Source of the DNA: Chloroflexota bacterium
GTDB taxonomy: Bacteria > Chloroflexota > Anaerolineae > Anaerolineales > VGOW01
NCBI GenBank assembly: GCA_016197225.1
Contig: JACPWC010000104.1
Span: forward strand, 1 to 62,348
DNA length: 62,348 nt
Direction of reading: 5' to 3'
This document shows, one piece after another, positions 22,503 to 30,159 of the stretch. Under the pieces are notes generated by a model. The model had not been told where the DNA came from and made no database searches. It worked only from the letters and a program-made list of their open reading frames with translations. Each line of letters starts with the position of its first letter. The stretch's first letter is position 1. The position numbers were made by a program, and so were the translations under genes.

Positions 22503-22503
22503 T

Positions 22504-22532
22504 AGAGACGGCCCGCCGGGTCGTCTCTTTTT
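22504..22532. terminator. bidirectional rho-independent terminator
   Basis: AGAGACGGCCC (22504-22514), loop GCC, and GGGTCGTCTCT (22518-22528) make an 11-bp stem with one G-U pair, followed by TTTTTATTT. It lies between the convergent pentapeptide and dehydrogenase genes. Confidence 0.85.
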
Positions 22533-24075
22533 ATTTGGAAAGCGAGAAAACGAAGGCGATCAGCGATTCAATCTCGGCCTCCGTCAAAACATCGCCATAG
22601 TTTTGGTACATGTAGTCGGAGTTGTAGTTGGGCACAATGTAATCGTTCGGGCGCAGAATGGATTGGCGGACATATTCGACGGCGCTCAATCCTTGAACGC
22701 GCTGATGGGCAACGTCCCTCAGCCCGACCAGCGACGGCCCCAGCCCGGCCCGGTCGTCCAGCAGGTGGCAGGTGAGACAGGGCGGCGCTCCGGCGGCCCC
22801 GTTGCGATACAACGCCTCGCCCGCCGCCACTTGTTCCGGCGAAAACGCAGGTAGCGGCTCGGCAGTGGCCGTCGCCGATTCGGCGGTCACAGTTTCACCC
22901 ACGTAGGCAACCCGATAGACAGCGCCTGTTTGCCATTCCAGGATGTAGAGAGCCTCATCCGGGCCAACCGTCACATCAATGGGGCGAAAGTTCGTCCCGG
23001 TGTTGAAGCGGGCAAACGGCTCCCACTCGCCGTGAAGCGCGCCATCGTCGCCGCGCCTCAGCGGCACGACGACAACCATTTGGCCGTTGGTGATTTGCCG
23101 ATCCAGCGCGACCTGCGCGCCCGTGCCCCACAGCGCCACGTAGACGGCGTTTTGATAAGCTTCTGGAAACTGCCTGCCTGCATAGTAAATCAGCCCGGCC
23201 GAGCCGACCGAGGGATAGAACTCGGTGATGGGGGCGGCGGACGTTGCCCCGAGTGGCGGTTTCCCGTACACGTCGGGGAAACCGTAGTGGCGGCCCTGTT
23301 GCACCAGGTTCAGTTCTTCGGGAACCAGCGAGCGTAGCGTCCGATCAAATTTGCTGGGGTTGTTGTCGGCGGTGAAGAGATCGCCTTCGGGCGAGAAGGT
23401 GAGATCGTAAGGGTTGCGAAAGCCGGCGGCGAAGACTTGCAGATCACTGCCGTCGGCGTTCAGGCGCAGCACCGAAGCTTCCATCGGATCGGTGATCGGG
23501 CCGTGATCGGTGGTGGAGCCGACGCCCACATACAACTTGCCGTCCGGCCCAAAGGCGATGCCGTTGTTGGAGTGATCGGGATAGCGCAAAGAGACCAGCC
23601 CGGTGACGACGGGCGTGAGTGTATCGTAGTCGCCATCGCCATCGTCGTCGCTCAACACGCTAATGCGGCCACTGTCGGAAAGATAGAGCTTGCCGTCGTG
23701 AAAGGCCAGGCCAACAGCGTGAGTGACTTTGTGCTCACTGCCGTCAAATACCTGCCGCATGGCTTCAGCGTCAGTATTGCCGTCTTTATCTTCAAATTGA
23801 AAGATGTCGCCTTCCAGCGTGAGAAGGTAGAGATTCTCATCCGGCCCAAAGAGAATGGCCGTAGGCAGGTGAATGTCGCGCGGCTCGGCGAAGGACGCTA
23901 TGGCAAAACCCGGCGGAACCCGGATGGTGTTGGTCGCCGGGGCCGGGCTGGAGAGTTGCCGGATCATCCAACGGGCAACTGTGACCGCGCCCACCCCGGC
24001 CAGAGCCAGAACAATCAACCCAATGCCGGCCACCCCGAGGCGGGGCCACCATCGAGTTGGGATCGGGCTTCTCAT
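22531..24075 (-). CDS. PQQ-type glucose/sorbosone dehydrogenase with cytochrome c tail
   Basis: A 514-residue exported protein. An N-terminal signal/anchor helix (~12-35) is followed by a beta-propeller (~50-395) of the glucose/sorbosone dehydrogenase family: PPGFAIASFAEPRDIHLPTA, NGIAFGPDGKLYVGVGSTTD, AAGFRNPYDLTFSPEGDLFT. Residues ~415-514 form a class I cytochrome c with the haem site CLTCH (Cys433, Cys436, His437) and a possible Met ligand in SDYMYQNYGDVL. It probably oxidises a sugar-like substrate and passes electrons to the haem outside the membrane; the substrate is unknown. It overlaps the upstream kelch gene as ATGA, so the two form an operon. Confidence 0.85.
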   Translation of the reverse strand: MRSPIPTRWWPRLGVAGIGLIVLALAGVGAVTVARWMIRQLSSPAPATNTIRVPPGFAIASFAEPRDIHLPTAILFGPDENLYLLTLEGDIFQFEDKDGNTDAEAMRQVFDGSEHKVTHAVGLAFHDGKLYLSDSGRISVLSDDDGDGDYDTLTPVVTGLVSLRYPDHSNNGIAFGPDGKLYVGVGSTTDHGPITDPMEASVLRLNADGSDLQVFAAGFRNPYDLTFSPEGDLFTADNNPSKFDRTLRSLVPEELNLVQQGRHYGFPDVYGKPPLGATSAAPITEFYPSVGSAGLIYYAGRQFPEAYQNAVYVALWGTGAQVALDRQITNGQMVVVVPLRRGDDGALHGEWEPFARFNTGTNFRPIDVTVGPDEALYILEWQTGAVYRVAYVGETVTAESATATAEPLPAFSPEQVAAGEALYRNGAAGAPPCLTCHLLDDRAGLGPSLVGLRDVAHQRVQGLSAVEYVRQSILRPNDYIVPNYNSDYMYQNYGDVLTEAEIESLIAFVFSLSK

Positions 24076-25118
24076 TTATCTGGAGTGAAAATTTCGACAG
24101 CGCCGCTCAGGGTGAATCGCGTTTGTGGGCCGGAGCCGGTCGCGCCGGAGATCACGTACAGTTTGTCATTCGCCACAGCGGCGGCGACGCCATGACGCGG
24201 AGTGGGCAGGGCCGGCCAGGACGACCAGCTATCGGTGGCCGGGTCGTAGACTTCGTGCTGGGCGTAAACGCAAAGCTGAGGGTAGTTCTCGCCGCCGAGG
24301 ATGTGGACTTTGCCGTCGAGTACCGTCACGGCAAATCCACTGCGGGGCGTGGGCATGTCTTGTTTATGCGTCCAGGTATTTGTGGCCGGGTCGTAAACGT
24401 CAACGGAGGCGTAGTTGGCGCTGTGCTTCCAGCGCCCGCCAAAGAGATAGAGCTTGCCGTCCACGGCCACGCCCTTCACGTGATCGCGCGGGCCGGAGAG
24501 CGGGGCCAGCGAGGCGTCCCAGGTGTTCGTGGCCGGGTCGTAGGCCCAGACTTCGATCGGGTTTTCCCAGTCGGGCGCGTCGCCGCCGGCTACGTAGAGC
24601 TTGCCGTTGATGGCAACCATAGCCTGCGCGGCGCGATGGCCGGGCATGTCGGCCAATTGTTTCCACTCGTTCGTTTTGGGATTGTAGACCCAGAGGCCGT
24701 TGACGTTGGGAAAGAATTCGACGGAGTAGCCGCCGCTGACGTAGATGAGGCCGTCAATCACATCCACGCCTACGTGATGCAGACCTTTGGGCAGGGGGGC
24801 CAGCGTCTGCCAGGAATCCGTCGCCGGGTTGTAAACGTCGAACTGAGGTGAGACCTGCCAGTCGGCCAATAAGCCGCCCGGCACGTAGATGAGGCCGTTC
24901 AACACAGCCACTTCCGTTTCGCCGCGCGCCAGCGGCAAGTCACGGCCCGGCGACCACGAGCCGCCAACGGTTGAAGTCGAATCTATATCGCACACTTTGC
25001 CCGGTGTAAACTGGGCCTGTAGCCGGCTTGCGGCTCGTGGGCCGGCGTAAATTGCTAGAGTAGCGACGATGAGAATCGCCGCTATCACGCCTGTAATCTG
25101 AATTCTTGAGAACTTCAT
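24072..25118 (-). CDS. exported kelch-repeat protein
   Basis: A 348-residue protein with an N-terminal anchor/signal (MKFSRIQITGVIAAILIVAT) and a kelch beta-propeller of six repeats, each with a G-G pair and a spaced Tyr/Trp: LIYVPGGLLADWQVSPQFDV, YNPATDSWQTLAPLPKGLHH, DGLIYVSGGYSVEFFPNVNG, GKLYVAGGDAPDWE, GKLYLFGGRWKHS, GKVHILGGENYPQLCVY. Such propellers act as binding scaffolds or, in galactose oxidase, as enzymes; the Cys/Tyr pair of galactose oxidase was not recognised here. It is coupled by an ATGA overlap to the dehydrogenase gene, suggesting a joint extracellular role. Confidence 0.85.
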   Translation of the reverse strand: MKFSRIQITGVIAAILIVATLAIYAGPRAASRLQAQFTPGKVCDIDSTSTVGGSWSPGRDLPLARGETEVAVLNGLIYVPGGLLADWQVSPQFDVYNPATDSWQTLAPLPKGLHHVGVDVIDGLIYVSGGYSVEFFPNVNGLWVYNPKTNEWKQLADMPGHRAAQAMVAINGKLYVAGGDAPDWENPIEVWAYDPATNTWDASLAPLSGPRDHVKGVAVDGKLYLFGGRWKHSANYASVDVYDPATNTWTHKQDMPTPRSGFAVTVLDGKVHILGGENYPQLCVYAQHEVYDPATDSWSSWPALPTPRHGVAAAVANDKLYVISGATGSGPQTRFTLSGAVEIFTPDK

Positions 25119-25190
25119 TAATTTTGTCCCTCATCATTTGAGCTTATTGATACGCTGGGCAAGTATACCGGTTTTTGATGAAGCCATAGG

Positions 25191-28100
25191 CTACTTTCGC
25201 TCAAACAAAGACACCGGCGGATCGCCCATGTCGCCAGTGAGAGTCAAGTGCAACGCCTTGAGCAGTGTGCCATCCTCGCCGCGCAACTCTTTCACTGTTC
25301 CCACCAACTCAAAACCGAATTGACGCAAACCGTCCACAAAGCGGGCCAGGCCTTCGGGCGTGAAAGCCGAGTCCGGTTCGACGATGAACAGGTGCCCGCC
25401 GCCCTGCAGGATACGCGCGGCATGGGTGAAATAGCTTTTGAGATCAGCCGCCGGGCCGTAAAGCGAGAGGCTGTAAATCAGCACATCCGCCGACTTGTCG
25501 GGTAGCGGCGGGTTTTCCATTTTGCCGCGCAGTTGGCCGGGGCGGTCGTGCCGATCCAGCCCGGTAACGTGGCAAGGCAAGTCGGCAAAGCGGTTGAGGC
25601 CACAACCCATGTCTACCACGGCCAGGTCGGGCCGCATGAGGGGCGTGAGCCGACCGCGCAGCCATTGATGCGACAGTTTGGCGGCAGTGGACGTTTCGAG
25701 GTGGGCCAGGAATTGGCGGGTGTAGTCCGGGTCGGCAAAAACTTCGTCGGCGCGGGCGGCGCTGAGGCCGCGCAACCGCCCGATCTCGCCGCGCCATTTC
25801 TGCGCCTCGCTCTGCGTTTCGGGGCGGCGCTCCACTGCCAGCGGCTCGACCCCGATCTCGCGGGCTTGCTTGAGCCAGCGGCGCAGGGCCTTCTGCACTT
25901 TGTCGGCGGCATCGGTCGTGTCGTACTTGCCGTCAATCGCCACATCTGACAGTTCGCGTTTGCCCTCGATCAGCGCCCAGATGCGCTCGTCAAGGGTGTG
26001 ATGAGCCGAGCCATCGCGCAGGGTCGCCATCGTCGTGGTGTGCAGAACGTCCACCCGCACGATTTTCTTTTGGCCCTCGCGGTGCAAGCGGGCCAGCCCC
26101 TGCTCAAACTCGGCCCAGGTGTAGGGCAAGTCGGCGAAGATGATTTCGTTGGCCGTGTCGGCCTGCTTGGGATCGAACAGAGTCAGCCCTACGCCAATCG
26201 TCCCGATTGTCCCTACCAAAACCCGCGCTCCGTCTGGCGAACGAAACGAGTCGAGCAGTGTTTGGCGCTCGTTCTTGTGGATCAAACCGTTGATGTGGGC
26301 AATTTGACCGGGGAGGAACTCCTCGAGGTAGGCGGCGATTTTCTCGGAGACATCGTCGGTGAGGTAGGTGAGAATGAGTAGTTTCCGCGCCGCCTGCGCC
26401 CGCTGAAGCAGGTAGGGCAGTTTGGCCTCGGCGGCGAGTTTGCGGAGTTCGACCAATGCGTGCGAGGCTTGCGATCTGGGCCAGCCGTAAATCTCCAGCA
26501 TTTGTGCGTCGAGGTCGAGCGGCAGGGGAATATCCACCGTTCGCACTTCACAGCCGGGCAGGTGCAAAAGCACTTCGCGCTTGCGGCGGCGCACGACGTG
26601 TGGAAGCAAGGCCTCGAAGACATCGGCGATGTCGCGCAGGCGGCGACTGCTCAGGCGCGAATGATCGAACTGCGGCGCGTGCTGGCTGAGGGTTTGCAGG
26701 AGCGACATCGGCTCGGCCAGTTCGTTGACCAGCGGCGTGCCGGTCAGGCCAATGGCGGCCCGGGCTGAGGCGCGCAGTTTTTCCAGCGCCTCCCGGCGGC
26801 GGGTGAGGTCTTGCCCGGCCCGTTGCTTGATGAAGTGAATCTCGTCGAGGCACAGGCAATCGAACGGCCTTTCGGCCAGGGCGGCGACAGCATCTTCGTT
26901 TAGCAGTTCTTCGTAGTGCAGAACGTAAAACGTCAGGCGTGAAGCAGGCAGGTCGGCGAGGGTTCGTTCGAGGCCTCGTGTGATACGAGCCTGCGGCAAG
27001 CGAGTCTTGATTTCGCCGCGTGGGCCGCACCAAGTATCGTCGGCCACTGTTTTGGGCGCGACGATCACGATATTGCGAATCCCGGACGCCGCCACCGCCG
27101 CGAGGAACGAGGCCGATTTGCCCATGCCGGGGTCGTCGGCGTTGAGGAGGAAGTGGCGGTTAGACGCTTCGCGCCCACCAACGAGAGGCACAAAGTCGGC
27201 CTCCGCCGACTCGGGTTTAGCCTGCGAAGGCAGGCTTCGCGCTTCTGTTGCGGCGACTTCCAGTCGCCCGGCACCCAAAACATCCGCCATCCTCCGAGCC
27301 GCATCGGCCTGATGCAGTCGCAAGCGCGGGCCGCGCCAGCCGTAATCCGGCAAGGCCGCCGCAAAGTTCACCGCCTGTTCTACTTCAAGCGTGAACAGCG
27401 CCGAGGCCTCGGCCACAAATTCGTTGGCCGTGTGTTCGGGATAGGCGGCGAGGATGGCGGCCTCGACATCGTCGGCGGTGACGGTTTGGGTGGCGTCGAG
27501 CGAGCCGTACCAGGCATACAGCCGCTTGTAAAATTCTTGCCACAGGATTTTCGAGGTGAGCAGACTCAACACTTCGTCCAACGGCAAGCGCAGTTCGCCC
27601 AGCGCCGAGAGGCCGCGAATGATGGCCTGCTCGCCTTCCGTGTCGGGCGCGGTAGGGGTCAGCAGGGTTGGGGCGAGAGTTGAACTCTCGCCCATCCCCA
27701 GCCCCTCGCCCAACAACGCCTCGGCCTCCGCCGCCGTGAGGTCGTCGCGCTCTTCAAGGGCGACGGTCTCAGTCGCAATCTCTTCGCCCCCGCTCACCAA
27801 ATTGGCAAGGGCCGACTCGATCTCGGCGTGATCGCCACGCGCCAGACTCGCGCCCAACTTGACAACGCGCTGATTGCGAAACTCCAACAGCCCCGCCCGC
27901 CGCAGGATGACCATGACTTGGGCGGGGCTGAGGAGGTTGGACTCGGCGAGGGGTTGAAGGGCGCGGGCAGTTTTTTCGACGGAGGAGGCGGTGCGAGGGG
28001 TGATGATTTCGTAGCCAATGTAAGCAAGACCGAGGCGGTGAGCGATAGCTGAGAAACCACCATATCTGCCAATTGCACTTATTAAGTCGTGTCTCTGTTC

Positions 28101-29477
28101 AGCAATTAATTCACGTACCAATGGCATGATGCCATTTTTACCCTGTTTTGTAATGAAGGTGAGCAGTTCCCGTTCGACGTTCGCGAAATCGCTCCAATAG
28201 CCTGTTGGCTTATTGGTCTGTTCCAGACCAAGCCTTTCAGCTACAACTGGTATGCCGCCGTGCTTGCGGATCGCATTTGCTAGATCATCACGGCCCGAAA
28301 TGGTCAATTCTCGGGCAGTTGGCATAACACCATCTATGCTGTGCTCAGCGATAAAGGCGCGTAGTTCCATCTCAACATTCGTAAAATTCTCCCAGTAACC
28401 TGGTGATACGTGAGTACGCTGTAACCCAAGCCGCTTTGCCACAGCCGGAAAGCCGCCTTGCTTGCTAATTCCACCAACCAACCTGCTATATCCTGAAGCG
28501 ATCATTTCGGGTTCAGTTGGCATGATGCCTGCCGTGCCATGCTTGGCAATAAAGGCTCTGAGTTCCCTTTCGACATTCTCAAATTCATCCCAATAACCTT
28601 TGTGCTTGCGAGTGTCTGGCCGTTCCAGTCGAAGCCGCTTCGCTACAGCCGAAAAGCCACCATGCCTATAAATTGCATCAGCCAAGTGTCTATGATCGGT
28701 GTCAGTCAACTGGATATAGGTTGGCATGATGCCATTTGTACCGTACTCAGCGATAAAAGCTCGCAACCCTCGTTCGACATTCGCGAAATCGTCCCAGTAG
28801 CCCATAGGTTTGTGGGCGCTTGGGCGCTTCAAGCCAAGTCGCTCAGCTACCGTTTGAAAGTCACCATGCCTACCAATCGCCGCATTCAAATCAAAACGCT
28901 TCTCAGTAGCTAGCTCGGCCTGGGTTGGCATGTTGCCGTCCGTGCCATGTTCAGTGATAAAAGCGCGTAACTCTTGCTCAAGATTCGCAAATTCATCCCA
29001 ATAGCCTGCTGGTTTATTGGCGTGTGGGCGTTCCAGACCCAGTTGCTTGGCTACAGCCGCAAAGCCACCATGCTGGCGAATCGCTGCAGCCAAACTGCCA
29101 TGCCCTGCATCGCGGAGTTTGCGGTTGGTTGGCATGACATCACTGACACCCTGTTCAGCGATGAATATCCGCAGTTCTTCTTCAACGTTTTTGAAATCGC
29201 TCCAGTGACCTTTAGATCTATGGGCATTGGGTCGCTCAAGACCAAGCTTCTTGGCTACAGCCGGAAAGCTGCCGTGCTTGCCAATTGCACTAATCAGATC
29301 TACACGCCCTGAAGAGATCAACTTCTCTACAGTCGGCATGACACTACCCGTGTCATGTTCGGCAATGAAGGAGCGCAGTTCTCGCTCAAGATTGGCGAAG
29401 TCGTTCCAATAACCGGGAGGCTTTGGTGGGCGACGCTTGGCTTTTGGCTTAGGCGGGGCTGGCTTCTTCTTAGGCAT
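25191..29477 (-). CDS. GYW-repeat / SNF2-like helicase / RRP8-like methyltransferase fusion
   Basis: A 1428-residue protein. Residues 1-21 are K/P-rich. Residues 22-~486 are seven repeats of 66-68 residues. Residues ~490-730 are helical and unassigned. The SF2 helicase core follows: Walker A ADDPGMGKSAS (Lys787), VAPKTVADDTW, DEIH box (878-881), LTGTPLVNELAEPM, and the C-terminal RecA lobe with TIGTIGVGLTLFDP and QGLARLHREGQKK. The end (~1260-1428) is a Rossmann methyltransferase: VVDMGCG (1287-1293), ENPPLPDKSADVLIYSLSLY, GGGHLFIVEP. The last pattern matches the nucleolar RRP8 family (known for rRNA base methylation), but the target here may be DNA or RNA. It lies 3 bases after the DUF4760-like gene. 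A defence or DNA-processing role is inferred. Confidence 0.85.
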   Translation of the reverse strand: MPKKKPAPPKPKAKRRPPKPPGYWNDFANLERELRSFIAEHDTGSVMPTVEKLISSGRVDLISAIGKHGSFPAVAKKLGLERPNAHRSKGHWSDFKNVEEELRIFIAEQGVSDVMPTNRKLRDAGHGSLAAAIRQHGGFAAVAKQLGLERPHANKPAGYWDEFANLEQELRAFITEHGTDGNMPTQAELATEKRFDLNAAIGRHGDFQTVAERLGLKRPSAHKPMGYWDDFANVERGLRAFIAEYGTNGIMPTYIQLTDTDHRHLADAIYRHGGFSAVAKRLRLERPDTRKHKGYWDEFENVERELRAFIAKHGTAGIMPTEPEMIASGYSRLVGGISKQGGFPAVAKRLGLQRTHVSPGYWENFTNVEMELRAFIAEHSIDGVMPTARELTISGRDDLANAIRKHGGIPVVAERLGLEQTNKPTGYWSDFANVERELLTFITKQGKNGIMPLVRELIAEQRHDLISAIGRYGGFSAIAHRLGLAYIGYEIITPRTASSVEKTARALQPLAESNLLSPAQVMVILRRAGLLEFRNQRVVKLGASLARGDHAEIESALANLVSGGEEIATETVALEERDDLTAAEAEALLGEGLGMGESSTLAPTLLTPTAPDTEGEQAIIRGLSALGELRLPLDEVLSLLTSKILWQEFYKRLYAWYGSLDATQTVTADDVEAAILAAYPEHTANEFVAEASALFTLEVEQAVNFAAALPDYGWRGPRLRLHQADAARRMADVLGAGRLEVAATEARSLPSQAKPESAEADFVPLVGGREASNRHFLLNADDPGMGKSASFLAAVAASGIRNIVIVAPKTVADDTWCGPRGEIKTRLPQARITRGLERTLADLPASRLTFYVLHYEELLNEDAVAALAERPFDCLCLDEIHFIKQRAGQDLTRRREALEKLRASARAAIGLTGTPLVNELAEPMSLLQTLSQHAPQFDHSRLSSRRLRDIADVFEALLPHVVRRRKREVLLHLPGCEVRTVDIPLPLDLDAQMLEIYGWPRSQASHALVELRKLAAEAKLPYLLQRAQAARKLLILTYLTDDVSEKIAAYLEEFLPGQIAHINGLIHKNERQTLLDSFRSPDGARVLVGTIGTIGVGLTLFDPKQADTANEIIFADLPYTWAEFEQGLARLHREGQKKIVRVDVLHTTTMATLRDGSAHHTLDERIWALIEGKRELSDVAIDGKYDTTDAADKVQKALRRWLKQAREIGVEPLAVERRPETQSEAQKWRGEIGRLRGLSAARADEVFADPDYTRQFLAHLETSTAAKLSHQWLRGRLTPLMRPDLAVVDMGCGLNRFADLPCHVTGLDRHDRPGQLRGKMENPPLPDKSADVLIYSLSLYGPAADLKSYFTHAARILQGGGHLFIVEPDSAFTPEGLARFVDGLRQFGFELVGTVKELRGEDGTLLKALHLTLTGDMGDPPVSLFERK
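27190..27245. repeat. in-frame palindromic repeat before the Walker A motif
   Basis: AGTCGGC (27194-27200) pairs with GCCGACT (27205-27211), and GCCTGC (27220-27225) with GCAGGC (27230-27235). They encode roughly residues 745-763 of the helicase (LPSQAKPESAEADFV), a linker shortly before Walker A. Confidence 0.65.
27671..27693. repeat. in-frame perfect palindrome in the helicase gene
   Basis: GGGCGAGAGTT (27671-27681), one base, then AACTCTCGCCC (27683-27693). It encodes part of the low-complexity linker GMGESSTLAPTLL. Confidence 0.6.
28020..29414 (-). repeat. seven tandem GYW...LGL protein repeats
   Basis: Units start at residues 22, 90, 158, 226, 294, 360 and 426 of the fusion protein. 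Consensus seen: GYWxxFxNvExELrxFI, then MPTxxEL, DLxxAIxxhGGF and AVAkrLGLeR. The pattern resembles HNH/homing-endonuclease-associated repeats, small helical DNA-binding modules (inference). The DNA is lower in GC than the helicase core (27 of 60 bases at 28681-28740 against 42 of 60 at 26701-26760). Confidence 0.85.
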
Positions 29478-29480
29478 GCG

Positions 29481-30032
29481 CTATCGAAGAGAATTCTTCA
29501 GCGGATTAGAAAACAGACGTTTTATGCGCCGTTTATTAGCGAGTCGTTTTTCTGCCTTGCTTGCCTTACTAGCAAGCCACTCAAACTCAGCGTAGTAATC
29601 CTCATCACCTAACATCTGTCTCCATCCGAGAATGAATGGTTTGAGCCGCTTCCACATGTCTAAGATGTTCCGATTGTACGTTTCTGCAACGATATTCGCG
29701 GGGAGTAGTTTATGACGGCACAACAGCCCGATGTTGTCAAAATCTCTACAGATGGCATGTAGCTTTTCGGTATTTTCTGGTGAAAGAGGTCTGACAGCTT
29801 TCTCTAACTCTTGGTACACCCATTTGCGATTGTTGGCTGCTTGCTCAGTCGCTATTAAGTCTCTGACAAATTTCATGCCATCTAAATATCGAGCATTGAT
29901 CGACTCGCGAAGTTCTCTTGCAAATATAAATGCAAAGATCAATAACGACATTTCAACAATCGACTGAACTGCCTGAATGATCGGTTGGATCGGCTGTAAA
30001 AGCCTTGCAATATCTGTTAGCAGTTGTAGCAT
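29481..30032 (-). CDS. DUF4760-like membrane-associated protein
   Basis: A 183-residue protein. One hydrophobic segment lies near residues 18-40 (PIIQAVQSIVEMSLLIFAFI). The remainder is helical: NARYLDGMKFVRDLIATEQA, ELEKAVRPLSPENTEKLHAI, CRDFDNIGLLCRHKLLPANI, VAETYNRNILDMWKRLKPFI, and EDYYAEFEWLASKASKAEKR. This pattern matches DUF4760, a family of unknown function with an N-terminal helix. The gene ends 3 bases before the helicase fusion, so both are probably expressed together. It has lower GC than its neighbours (28 of 60 at 29701-29760), like the repeat-coding part of the fusion gene, suggesting joint horizontal transfer. Confidence 0.72.
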   Translation of the reverse strand: MLQLLTDIARLLQPIQPIIQAVQSIVEMSLLIFAFIFARELRESINARYLDGMKFVRDLIATEQAANNRKWVYQELEKAVRPLSPENTEKLHAICRDFDNIGLLCRHKLLPANIVAETYNRNILDMWKRLKPFILGWRQMLGDEDYYAEFEWLASKASKAEKRLANKRRIKRLFSNPLKNSLR

Positions 30033-30134
30033 ATTTCACCTGGCATGAGGGTTGCTGGAAAGAGGCTAACGCCAGCCCATAGGGTTACCGGGCACATCAA
30101 AGTCTTATGGGGATTATAGAACGAGATTGAAAAC

Positions 30135-30159
30135 AGAGACGACCTCAAGGGTCGTCTCT
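30135..30159 (-). terminator. terminator after asnS
   Basis: AGAGACGACC (30135-30144) and GGTCGTCTCT (30150-30159) form a 10-bp stem with a 5-base loop. Read on the minus strand it is followed by GTTTTC. It lies 6 bases past the asnS stop. Confidence 0.7.

Follow-up and report, generated by a model that had tools for sequence, protein, structure and literature searches.

DarB, a protein of phage P1 and of conjugative elements, has been described as a methylase-SWI2/SNF2 dyad and linked to antirestriction (PMC5512222), and RRP8 is reported as the eukaryotic enzyme that introduces 1-methyladenosine (m1A) into 25S/28S rRNA (PMC6085284). In phage homing endonucleases, tandem CapR/DUF4379/DUF723-like domains are regarded as DNA binding (PMC12350094). 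Here, we analyzed P0001, a protein of 1428 amino acids (aa) encoded in a 62,348-nucleotide contig of a Chloroflexota bacterium (JACPWC010000104.1, considered in full and referred to below as the window), in which a tandem array of so-called GYW repeats is joined to a SWI2/SNF2-type motor and an RRP8-like methyltransferase. We propose that P0001 and its relatives are array-aimed translocase-methyltransferases of double-stranded DNA (dsDNA) that belong to mobile elements and that, in the window, one of them resides at a variable host site; in our estimate, this proposal has an even chance of being correct.

P0001 resembles each of these systems in part. Like DarB, it carries a methyltransferase and a SWI2/SNF2-clade motor in one polypeptide of a kind found on mobile elements; however, as described in PMC5512222, the methyltransferase of DarB belongs to another family and is N-terminal, whereas the P0001 family has the order motor, then methyltransferase, and adds tandem-repeat arrays. 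The likeness to RRP8/nucleomethylin (PF05148) lies in the C-terminal methyltransferase domain, also in all seven viral members scanned, but RRP8 is presented in PMC6085284 as a eukaryotic rRNA m1A enzyme, whereas the domain of P0001 follows a repeat array and an SNF2 motor in one fused chain. The homing endonucleases share with the P0001 family the same zinc-repeat classes in tandem, which are thought to give DNA specificity, yet their effector, by the account in PMC12350094, is an EDxHD/Vsr-like nuclease, whereas P0001 consists of motor and methyltransferase and matched no nuclease family (hmmscan at E values up to 1). The word Rrp8 is absent from the main text of PMC5512222, and within the open-licence literature, which was partly surveyed, we found no description of a protein in which SNF2 or these repeats are combined with an RRP8-like domain. 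An earlier note on this DNA, made from the sequence alone, had known of no described system with this architecture, and none turned up in that literature. Known, then, are the parts and the motor-methyltransferase pairing; new, as far as we could find in print, are the RRP8-type domain, the domain order, the different arrays, and the layout in trans.

The open reading frame (ORF) of P0001 is intact, with an ATG start and without an internal stop, and comprises the following parts:

25191-29477, minus strand: whole P0001 ORF, 1428 aa (GYW array, linker, SWI2/SNF2 motor, and RRP8-like methyltransferase)
29211-29414, minus strand: GYW repeat 1, residues 22-89
29007-29210, minus strand: GYW repeat 2, residues 90-157
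28803-29006, minus strand: GYW repeat 3, residues 158-225
28599-28802, minus strand: GYW repeat 4, residues 226-293
28401-28598, minus strand: GYW repeat 5, residues 294-359
28203-28400, minus strand: GYW repeat 6, residues 360-425
28011-28202, minus strand: GYW repeat 7, residues 426-489, with a step in synonymous GC content near the repeat end
27144-28010, minus strand: core linker helices, residues about 490-778, alignable to other members, low model confidence
26043-27143, minus strand: SWI2/SNF2-type motor, residues about 779-1145, with K787, DEIH at 878-881, and QGLARLHREGQ
25302-25628, minus strand: RRP8-like methyltransferase, PF05148 match at residues 1284-1392, with VVDMGCG at 1287

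The order of repeats, motor, and methyltransferase in one protein, which the earlier note had proposed, is borne out by this single intact ORF and by family matches, and the positions that it gave for K787, DEIH, and VVDMGCG hold. The motor matched PF00176 (E = 5e-8) and PF00271 (E = 6e-5), both over the cutoff (hmmscan), as well as the DNA helicase family phrog_62 (E = 2.5e-46). When a structural model of the core was compared with PDB structures, the top 50 rows (Z = 20.8 to 26.6) were nearly all SWI2/SNF2 remodellers or translocases, among them INO80 (Z = 26.6, root mean square deviation of 2.9 over 392 residues); the predicted local distance difference test (pLDDT) score was 65 for the model as a whole, with higher values across most of the motor, and the linker was poorly modelled. 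The SNF2-type helicase of the earlier note is thus recovered as a two-lobe superfamily 2 core with Walker A/B, motif VI, and a SWI2/SNF2 fold. Its claim of an RRP8-like methyltransferase also stands: PF05148 matched residues 1284 to 1392 with 42.2 bits against a cutoff of 27, although this score is far below the 104 to 159 bits of the seven viral members scanned, and human RRP8 (2zfu) was the best sequence match among solved structures (phmmer E = 2.7e-6), a structure that the core profile found at E = 4.8e-50. All methyltransferase matches in P0001 (PF05148, Methyltransf_11, and Methyltransf_23) lie C-terminal to the motor. Walker A K787 and D878/E879 of DEIH fall in invariant columns. Over 18 cores, the motor motif positions are invariant, and the methyltransferase motif positions (DxGCG and SLSLxG-type) are largely so.

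Following the earlier note's suggestion to look for proteins with the same domain order, a pattern-based scan of 84,980 species, sensitive to close relatives only, recovered three full-length relatives, all in Chloroflexota metagenome-assembled genomes. L012 has nine GYW repeats (with two unread residues in the first), L013 has six, and L014 has five in a gene broken into two ORFs; the cores of the window, L012, and L013 are 72 to 81% identical. Chance fusion or misassembly of P0001 was considered and rejected, since full-length relatives occur in three other Chloroflexota genomes, two of them as unbroken ORFs. That the gene is a degenerate relic without a current role, as the split L014 gene and the interrupted members L051, L054, and L156 might suggest, is highly improbable in view of the unbroken ORFs of the window, L012, and L013, the identity of their cores, and the motor and methyltransferase motifs kept over 18 cores.

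Among 101 genomes (the window's own and 100 relatives), the whole protein occurred in the window genome only; nine matched P0001 at all, the other eight by motor or methyltransferase only. Together with a near-empty site in one congener (see below), this distribution supports the accessory, distributed family that the earlier note had envisaged. Outside Chloroflexota, the spread of the family was seen via plasmids and viral contigs only. The plasmid members of the linker-motor-methyltransferase core (tblastn) were two Rhodococcus proteins and one Crinalium protein, with four to seven significant DUF4379 stretches followed by the motor and PF05148 (E = 5e-38 to 5e-42). Within 400 Chloroflexota genomes, PF05148 exceeded 100 bits at four places in three genomes, all of which adjoin the same core. 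The array of L051 is DUF4379, that of L054 is INT_rpt over the cutoff, that of L052 is INT-like by our motif only, and no array was seen in the L053 ORF. In IMG/VR viral contigs, the core profile found 28 relatives, of which 22 matched the motor, 19 also the methyltransferase, and six were short; L151, L153, and L154 matched the motor without a methyltransferase match. An initial viral scan covered the best 80 of 161 relatives, and its rows L068 to L134 end by residue 709 (linker/motor only). By motif count, 14 of the 22 motor-matching viral relatives have an array in the same ORF as the core (INT, HGxKYDYS, DUF4379, or mixed). Pfam analysis of seven viral proteins gave PF05148 in all seven, INT_rpt in two (L056 and L058), and DUF4379 in three (L063, L064, and L066). 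Since PF14882 matched in 5 of 15 viral records searched in six frames and exceeded the cutoff in 1, the viral INT repeats are mostly divergent. PHROGs matched 7 of 10 flanking proteins from eight viral loci, including a terminase (L137) and a portal protein (L148), which marks these two contigs, at a minimum, as phage. A search of 50,697 records of named phages yielded matches at the motor level only and no core extending beyond it. An hhalign comparison of three GYW cores with 14 other cores aligned 626 columns collinearly, running from the linker end to the methyltransferase (E = 5.8e-50). By this comparison, P0001 is a member of a wider linker-SNF2-RRP8 core family, most of whose members carry an array.

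Two viral contigs carry an IS1595-type transposase gene (PF12762) that precedes the core gene by ~300 bp (L142:4708-5637 and L147:4870-5826), and L150 and L156 have such genes at a greater distance. Viral cores of this kind are perhaps transposon passengers; in L142 and L147, the stretches compared on either side of the transposase and core genes contained no 12-base inverted repeats.

The repeats on this one core family are of several types: DUF4379, INT, HGxKYDYS/DUF723-like (YDYS), and GYW. A tree was built from 23 cores, 11 of 34 entries having been left out beforehand as fragments or partial sequences (L014a, L051, L054, L151, L153, L154, L156a, and L156b) or near-copies (L144, L149, and L152). 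In this tree, the DUF4379 members group together, as do the GYW members (100/100), whereas a single group of all INT members was rejected (p-AU = 8.6e-10), as was one of all YDYS members (p-AU = 2.8e-4); L138 to L140, which carry one YDYS-type unit before INT repeats, were labelled INT. The cores of L140 and L142 are 69% identical, and their arrays are mostly of different types (INT-rich versus YDYS). Arrays diverge faster than cores: they were less alike in all 12 pairs compared (core/array identity of 81/50, 74/46, 72/50, 76/44, 73/46, 76/67, 64/37, 77/50, 74/52, 51/36, 69/40, and 68/62%). The window and its nearest relative share 81% of the core and 50% of the array, and the mildest gaps were those of the Rhodococcus pair (76/67) and of L140/L141 (68/62, with 66 array columns aligned). 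For each window repeat, the closest counterpart in L012 is at most 66% identical, little better than the 55 to 60% of its best match within its own protein.

Arrays also occur apart from the core. In one viral contig, six consecutive array-only ORFs (439, 567, 434, 210, 375, and 250 aa) with INT and zinc repeats and their own starts precede a core of 879 aa that has PF05148 and no array:

L145:735-10343 (IMGVR_UViG_3300044712_002679, 156894-166502): six array-only genes and the array-less core

The array ORFs are spaced by three 3-base gaps, one 90-base gap, and one 4-base overlap, the core follows 31 bases after the last of them, and five of the six share a C-terminal tail. Of three arrays scanned with Pfam, two exceeded the INT_rpt cutoff and the third the DUF723 and DUF4379 cutoffs. 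An array ORF also precedes an array-less core in L143, and array ORFs precede shortened or broken cores in L154 and L156, where they could be frame breaks. L150 was left uncounted because a GIY-YIG-like stretch (below the cutoff) is present in its upstream repeat ORFs, and two single-protein scans for a second locus of the L145 kind found L145's contig only. Type I restriction-modification systems have separate HsdS specificity subunits, and the L145 arrays may, by analogy, act like such subunits in trans. The likeness is one of layout only, with separate specificity-type genes beside a constant motor and methyltransferase; in contrast to those systems, no restriction subunit was seen in the core family, and the methyltransferase and repeats are different.

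These arrays bear on the possibility that the family serves counter-restriction only, in the manner of DarB: incoming phage or plasmid DNA would be broadly coated or methylated, the arrays would be loading platforms, and their variation would reflect drift or evasion of host factors. The methylase-SWI2/SNF2 pairing of DarB on mobile elements, with its described link to antirestriction (PMC5512222), and the plasmid and viral members identified here agree with such a role. However, the DarB-type methylase is characterized in that source as an N-terminal adenine type with LPD36, whereas that of P0001 is RRP8-like and C-terminal, and varied repeat types on one core, along with six array genes in L145, exceed what a loading platform needs. 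We regard this explanation as quite unlikely.

A difference between array and core was also apparent in base composition. At fourfold sites, the GC content of the window array is 0.457 (234 sites) versus 0.836 for the core (550 sites), and the array/core values are 0.394/0.714 in L012, 0.413/0.706 in L013, and 0.356/0.637 in L014 (Fisher P values for the four GYW loci of 7e-26, 1e-18, 9e-12, and 1e-8, from counts rounded from the GC measurements). The upstream gene is likewise low at three loci (DUF4760 gene in the window, 0.444; 262-aa gene in L012, 0.404; 231-aa gene in L014, 0.385); that of L013 is coaX (0.814), and the remaining neighbours measured range from 0.73 to 0.88. The following features are concerned:

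29481-30032, minus strand: upstream DUF4760 gene, 183 aa, with 3 bases between the gene end and the P0001 ATG
Window 28011-30032; L012:8604-11368; L014:5692-7436: stretch of low synonymous GC content, made up of the upstream gene and the array and reaching to the border between array and core within the ORF

From these values, we read the upstream gene and array as a probable foreign segment that became attached to an older core and whose renewal outpaces its adaptation; the alternative is selected codon bias in the array. A bolder reading, which we put forward tentatively and rate at under an even chance, is that of a modular, re-targetable nucleic acid methylation system, in which one engine would be served by interchangeable arrays in cis or in trans that are gained as cassettes and turn over more quickly than the engine itself. 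The six L145 arrays would then serve one engine as a multi-target weapon or marking system.

The seven GYW repeats (66 to 68 residues; residues 22 to 489) start at residues 22, 90, 158, 226, 294, 360, and 426, with spacings of 68, 68, 68, 68, 66, and 66. The number and length given in the earlier note agree with these positions and with a repeat profile, which recovered these seven and no others from the 4.8-Mb genome (E = 3e-32 to 6e-29); the profile was built with the window repeats, and these E values show number and place, not independent significance. In a model of the array (pLDDT of 76, predicted template modeling score [pTM] of 0.28), each repeat consists of four helices and short strands. 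Positions P27, L40, and L57 never vary and G48 varies once, whereas 11 of the 16 high-entropy positions (>2.5 bits) fall within three short helices (29-34, 38-46, and 50-57), a pattern that would fit a diversifying contact surface. The "HNH-type" label that the earlier note had attached to the repeats gained no clear support: hhalign gave a probability of 24% against five PF18780 HNH_repeat sequences, PF18780 was not among the hmmscan matches of P0001, and hmmsearch found no match to it in five proteins. A sequence search of solved structures with the repeats reached E = 0.84 at best. No kinship of GYW was detected to the INT, DUF4379, and YDYS repeat sets (hhalign probability, 0.1 to 1.8%) or to the WTYE repeats of L150 (1.6%, for a set of eight rows, one of which is a stray INT row); DUF4379 and YDYS repeats gave 74% with each other. 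GYW repeats were found neither in viral contigs (pattern scan) nor in named phages, nor in 399 other Chloroflexota genomes (profile search at E = 1e-6).

A plasmid search for GYW repeats found Allocoleopsis only, where plasmid pMIC7113.04 (L015:4320-5816) encodes a protein annotated as a terminase subunit. Behind its helix-turn-helix matches lie some three GYW repeats, identified by eye, and it has no motor or methyltransferase match. In five Chloroflexota genomes, including the window's (L182 to L186), two-domain proteins that we read from their sequence as putative DNA methylases end in one PF18780 HNH_repeat.

In the mechanism that we propose, a constant engine composed of the linker, the SWI2/SNF2 translocase, and the RRP8-like methyltransferase would be aimed by an exchangeable tandem-repeat array. 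The array would most likely bind a particular DNA sequence, the ATPase would grip the duplex and move along it from the array-bound site, and the methyltransferase would methylate bases there or close by, adenine being the likeliest in view of its ancestry. Mobile elements could in this way mark or protect their own DNA or impair that of a rival, and swapping the array, or providing several arrays in trans, would redirect the engine to another target. We infer dsDNA as the track from the SWI2/SNF2 motor; this motor, the DNA-binding-type DUF4379/DUF723-like arrays, and the DarB precedent together suggest a translocating methyltransferase aimed by its array. Since RRP8 makes m1A in rRNA, the main rival is an array-aimed RNA methyltransferase, whose repeats or zinc fingers would read RNA, whose ATPase would remodel RNA or ribonucleoprotein, and which would place m1A on rRNA, tRNA, or phage mRNA as a means of translation takeover or as a toxin. 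The methyltransferase is indeed a true RRP8-family domain, and RRP8 is described as an rRNA m1A enzyme (PMC6085284); however, the motor is of a family to which translocation on dsDNA is ascribed (PMC5512222), and DUF4379/DUF723-like arrays are regarded in homing endonucleases as DNA binding (PMC12350094). We consider this rival unlikely.

Several observations weigh against a DNA-directed engine with exchangeable arrays. RRP8 itself methylates RNA, so the substrate may be RNA. The GYW repeats are only presumed to bind DNA, and comparison of the array model (pTM of 0.28) with PDB gave nothing convincing (best Foldseek E = 0.55; Z at most 3.7, with TetR at 3.6); exposed residues vary anyway, also when constraint is relaxed. 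The ancestral array may have been of the INT type, in which case the scattered distribution of INT does not by itself imply exchange, and the INT labels depend in part on our motif (L052 and L055 lack PF14882 at E = 0.01). The starred, well-supported branches alone do not force two YDYS origins, one unit of L140 is still of the YDYS type and shares 62% identity with that of L141, and the branch of the GYW clade is long (2.2 changes per column). The six-array layout is that of one contig. Little or no GC step was seen in L017 (0.82/0.82), L018 (0.65/0.71), and L052 (0.69/0.80), and, within the L014 core, the second ORF is itself low (0.58; first ORF, 0.637).

If the arrays do aim the engine, the family would offer protein-guided, swappable direction of a translocating methyltransferase, and natural arrays of several repeat classes could be compared for a recognition code. 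If the proposal is true, another methyltransferase family would take part in phage-plasmid-host conflicts. The presence of close RRP8 relatives in plasmids and viral contigs makes the origin of the eukaryotic rRNA enzyme a testable question.

We also weighed whether P0001 is a bacterial anti-phage defence gene, in which case the variable upstream gene might supply an effector or another component. Its accessory location, low-GC upstream genes that differ from locus to locus, and matches of the ZorD, BrxH, and DrmD models to the motor (PADLOC) are compatible with this idea. The member in genome G364 has an HNH gene and a weak Cas13-ApeA-like match nearby, an FtsK/SpoIIIE-type gene adjoining one Rhodococcus DUF4379 member matches SspH (L018:13152-15833; PADLOC E = 4e-21), and the other Rhodococcus member has, ~480 bp upstream, a methyltransferase gene that matches mad2 (L017:7787-8503; PADLOC E = 6e-22). 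Against it, PADLOC, applied to P0001 and its DUF4760 neighbour, gave only motor-level matches and a weak mad2 match (methyltransferase) in the former and none in the latter, and no Type I restriction-modification, DISARM, BREX, or Zorya partner gene or nuclease was found in these two genes. The constant neighbour expected by the earlier note, a nuclease or DUF4760 gene, was not found either: the upstream gene is DUF4760, the 262-aa gene, the 231-aa gene, or coaX at the four GYW loci, and DUF4760 occurs in the window alone. Thus, of the defence clustering that the earlier note had raised, the accessory location stands and the constant nuclease or defence partner does not (neighbour proteins were clustered, with the 20 largest clusters considered, and the three upstream genes were compared separately). 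In addition, the site contents of two congeners do not look like defence, and viral contigs outnumber the other members found, in collections searched to different depths. A defence role seems improbable to us, and self-marking, counter-restriction, or competition between mobile elements fits the viral and plasmid members at least as well.

The DUF4760, L012, and L014 upstream genes show no similarity to one another by blastp at E = 10. The latter two matched no Pfam, NCBIfam, or PADLOC family; in a PDB search, the L012 gene had no match, and the L014 gene had matches at no better than E = 0.02, which are probably chance. One of 201 genomes contains relatives of the L014 gene. This 231-aa gene (L014:5692-6387) contains RNFAIH, which we take to resemble the HEPN Rx4-6H motif, and the 262-aa gene (L012:8604-9392) contains PDF...IGIEL, presumably resembling a PD-(D/E)XK-type motif; no family was matched in either case.

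The site itself is variable among congeners. In G004, the asnS and pentapeptide/PPIase genes are about 144 bp apart, and in the window they are separated by 7.6 kb with DUF4760, P0001, Kelch, and sugar-dehydrogenase/cytochrome genes:

22503-30129, no strand: variable insert between the pentapeptide-repeat gene and asnS

About 2.6 kb (G003) and 6.6 kb (G002) of other genes precede the PPIase gene at the same site, and no comparable region was obtained from G001. By our reading of their ORFs, the contents in G002 and G003 look metabolic, transport related, or regulatory; these differing, non-defence-looking contents point to a variable site rather than a visible defence island. Near both borders of the insert, at window positions 22518 and 30149, there is an 11-bp direct match, GGGTCGTCTCT. 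The copy of GGGTCGTCTCT at 30149 is overlapped by an inverted copy and may be a terminator stem.

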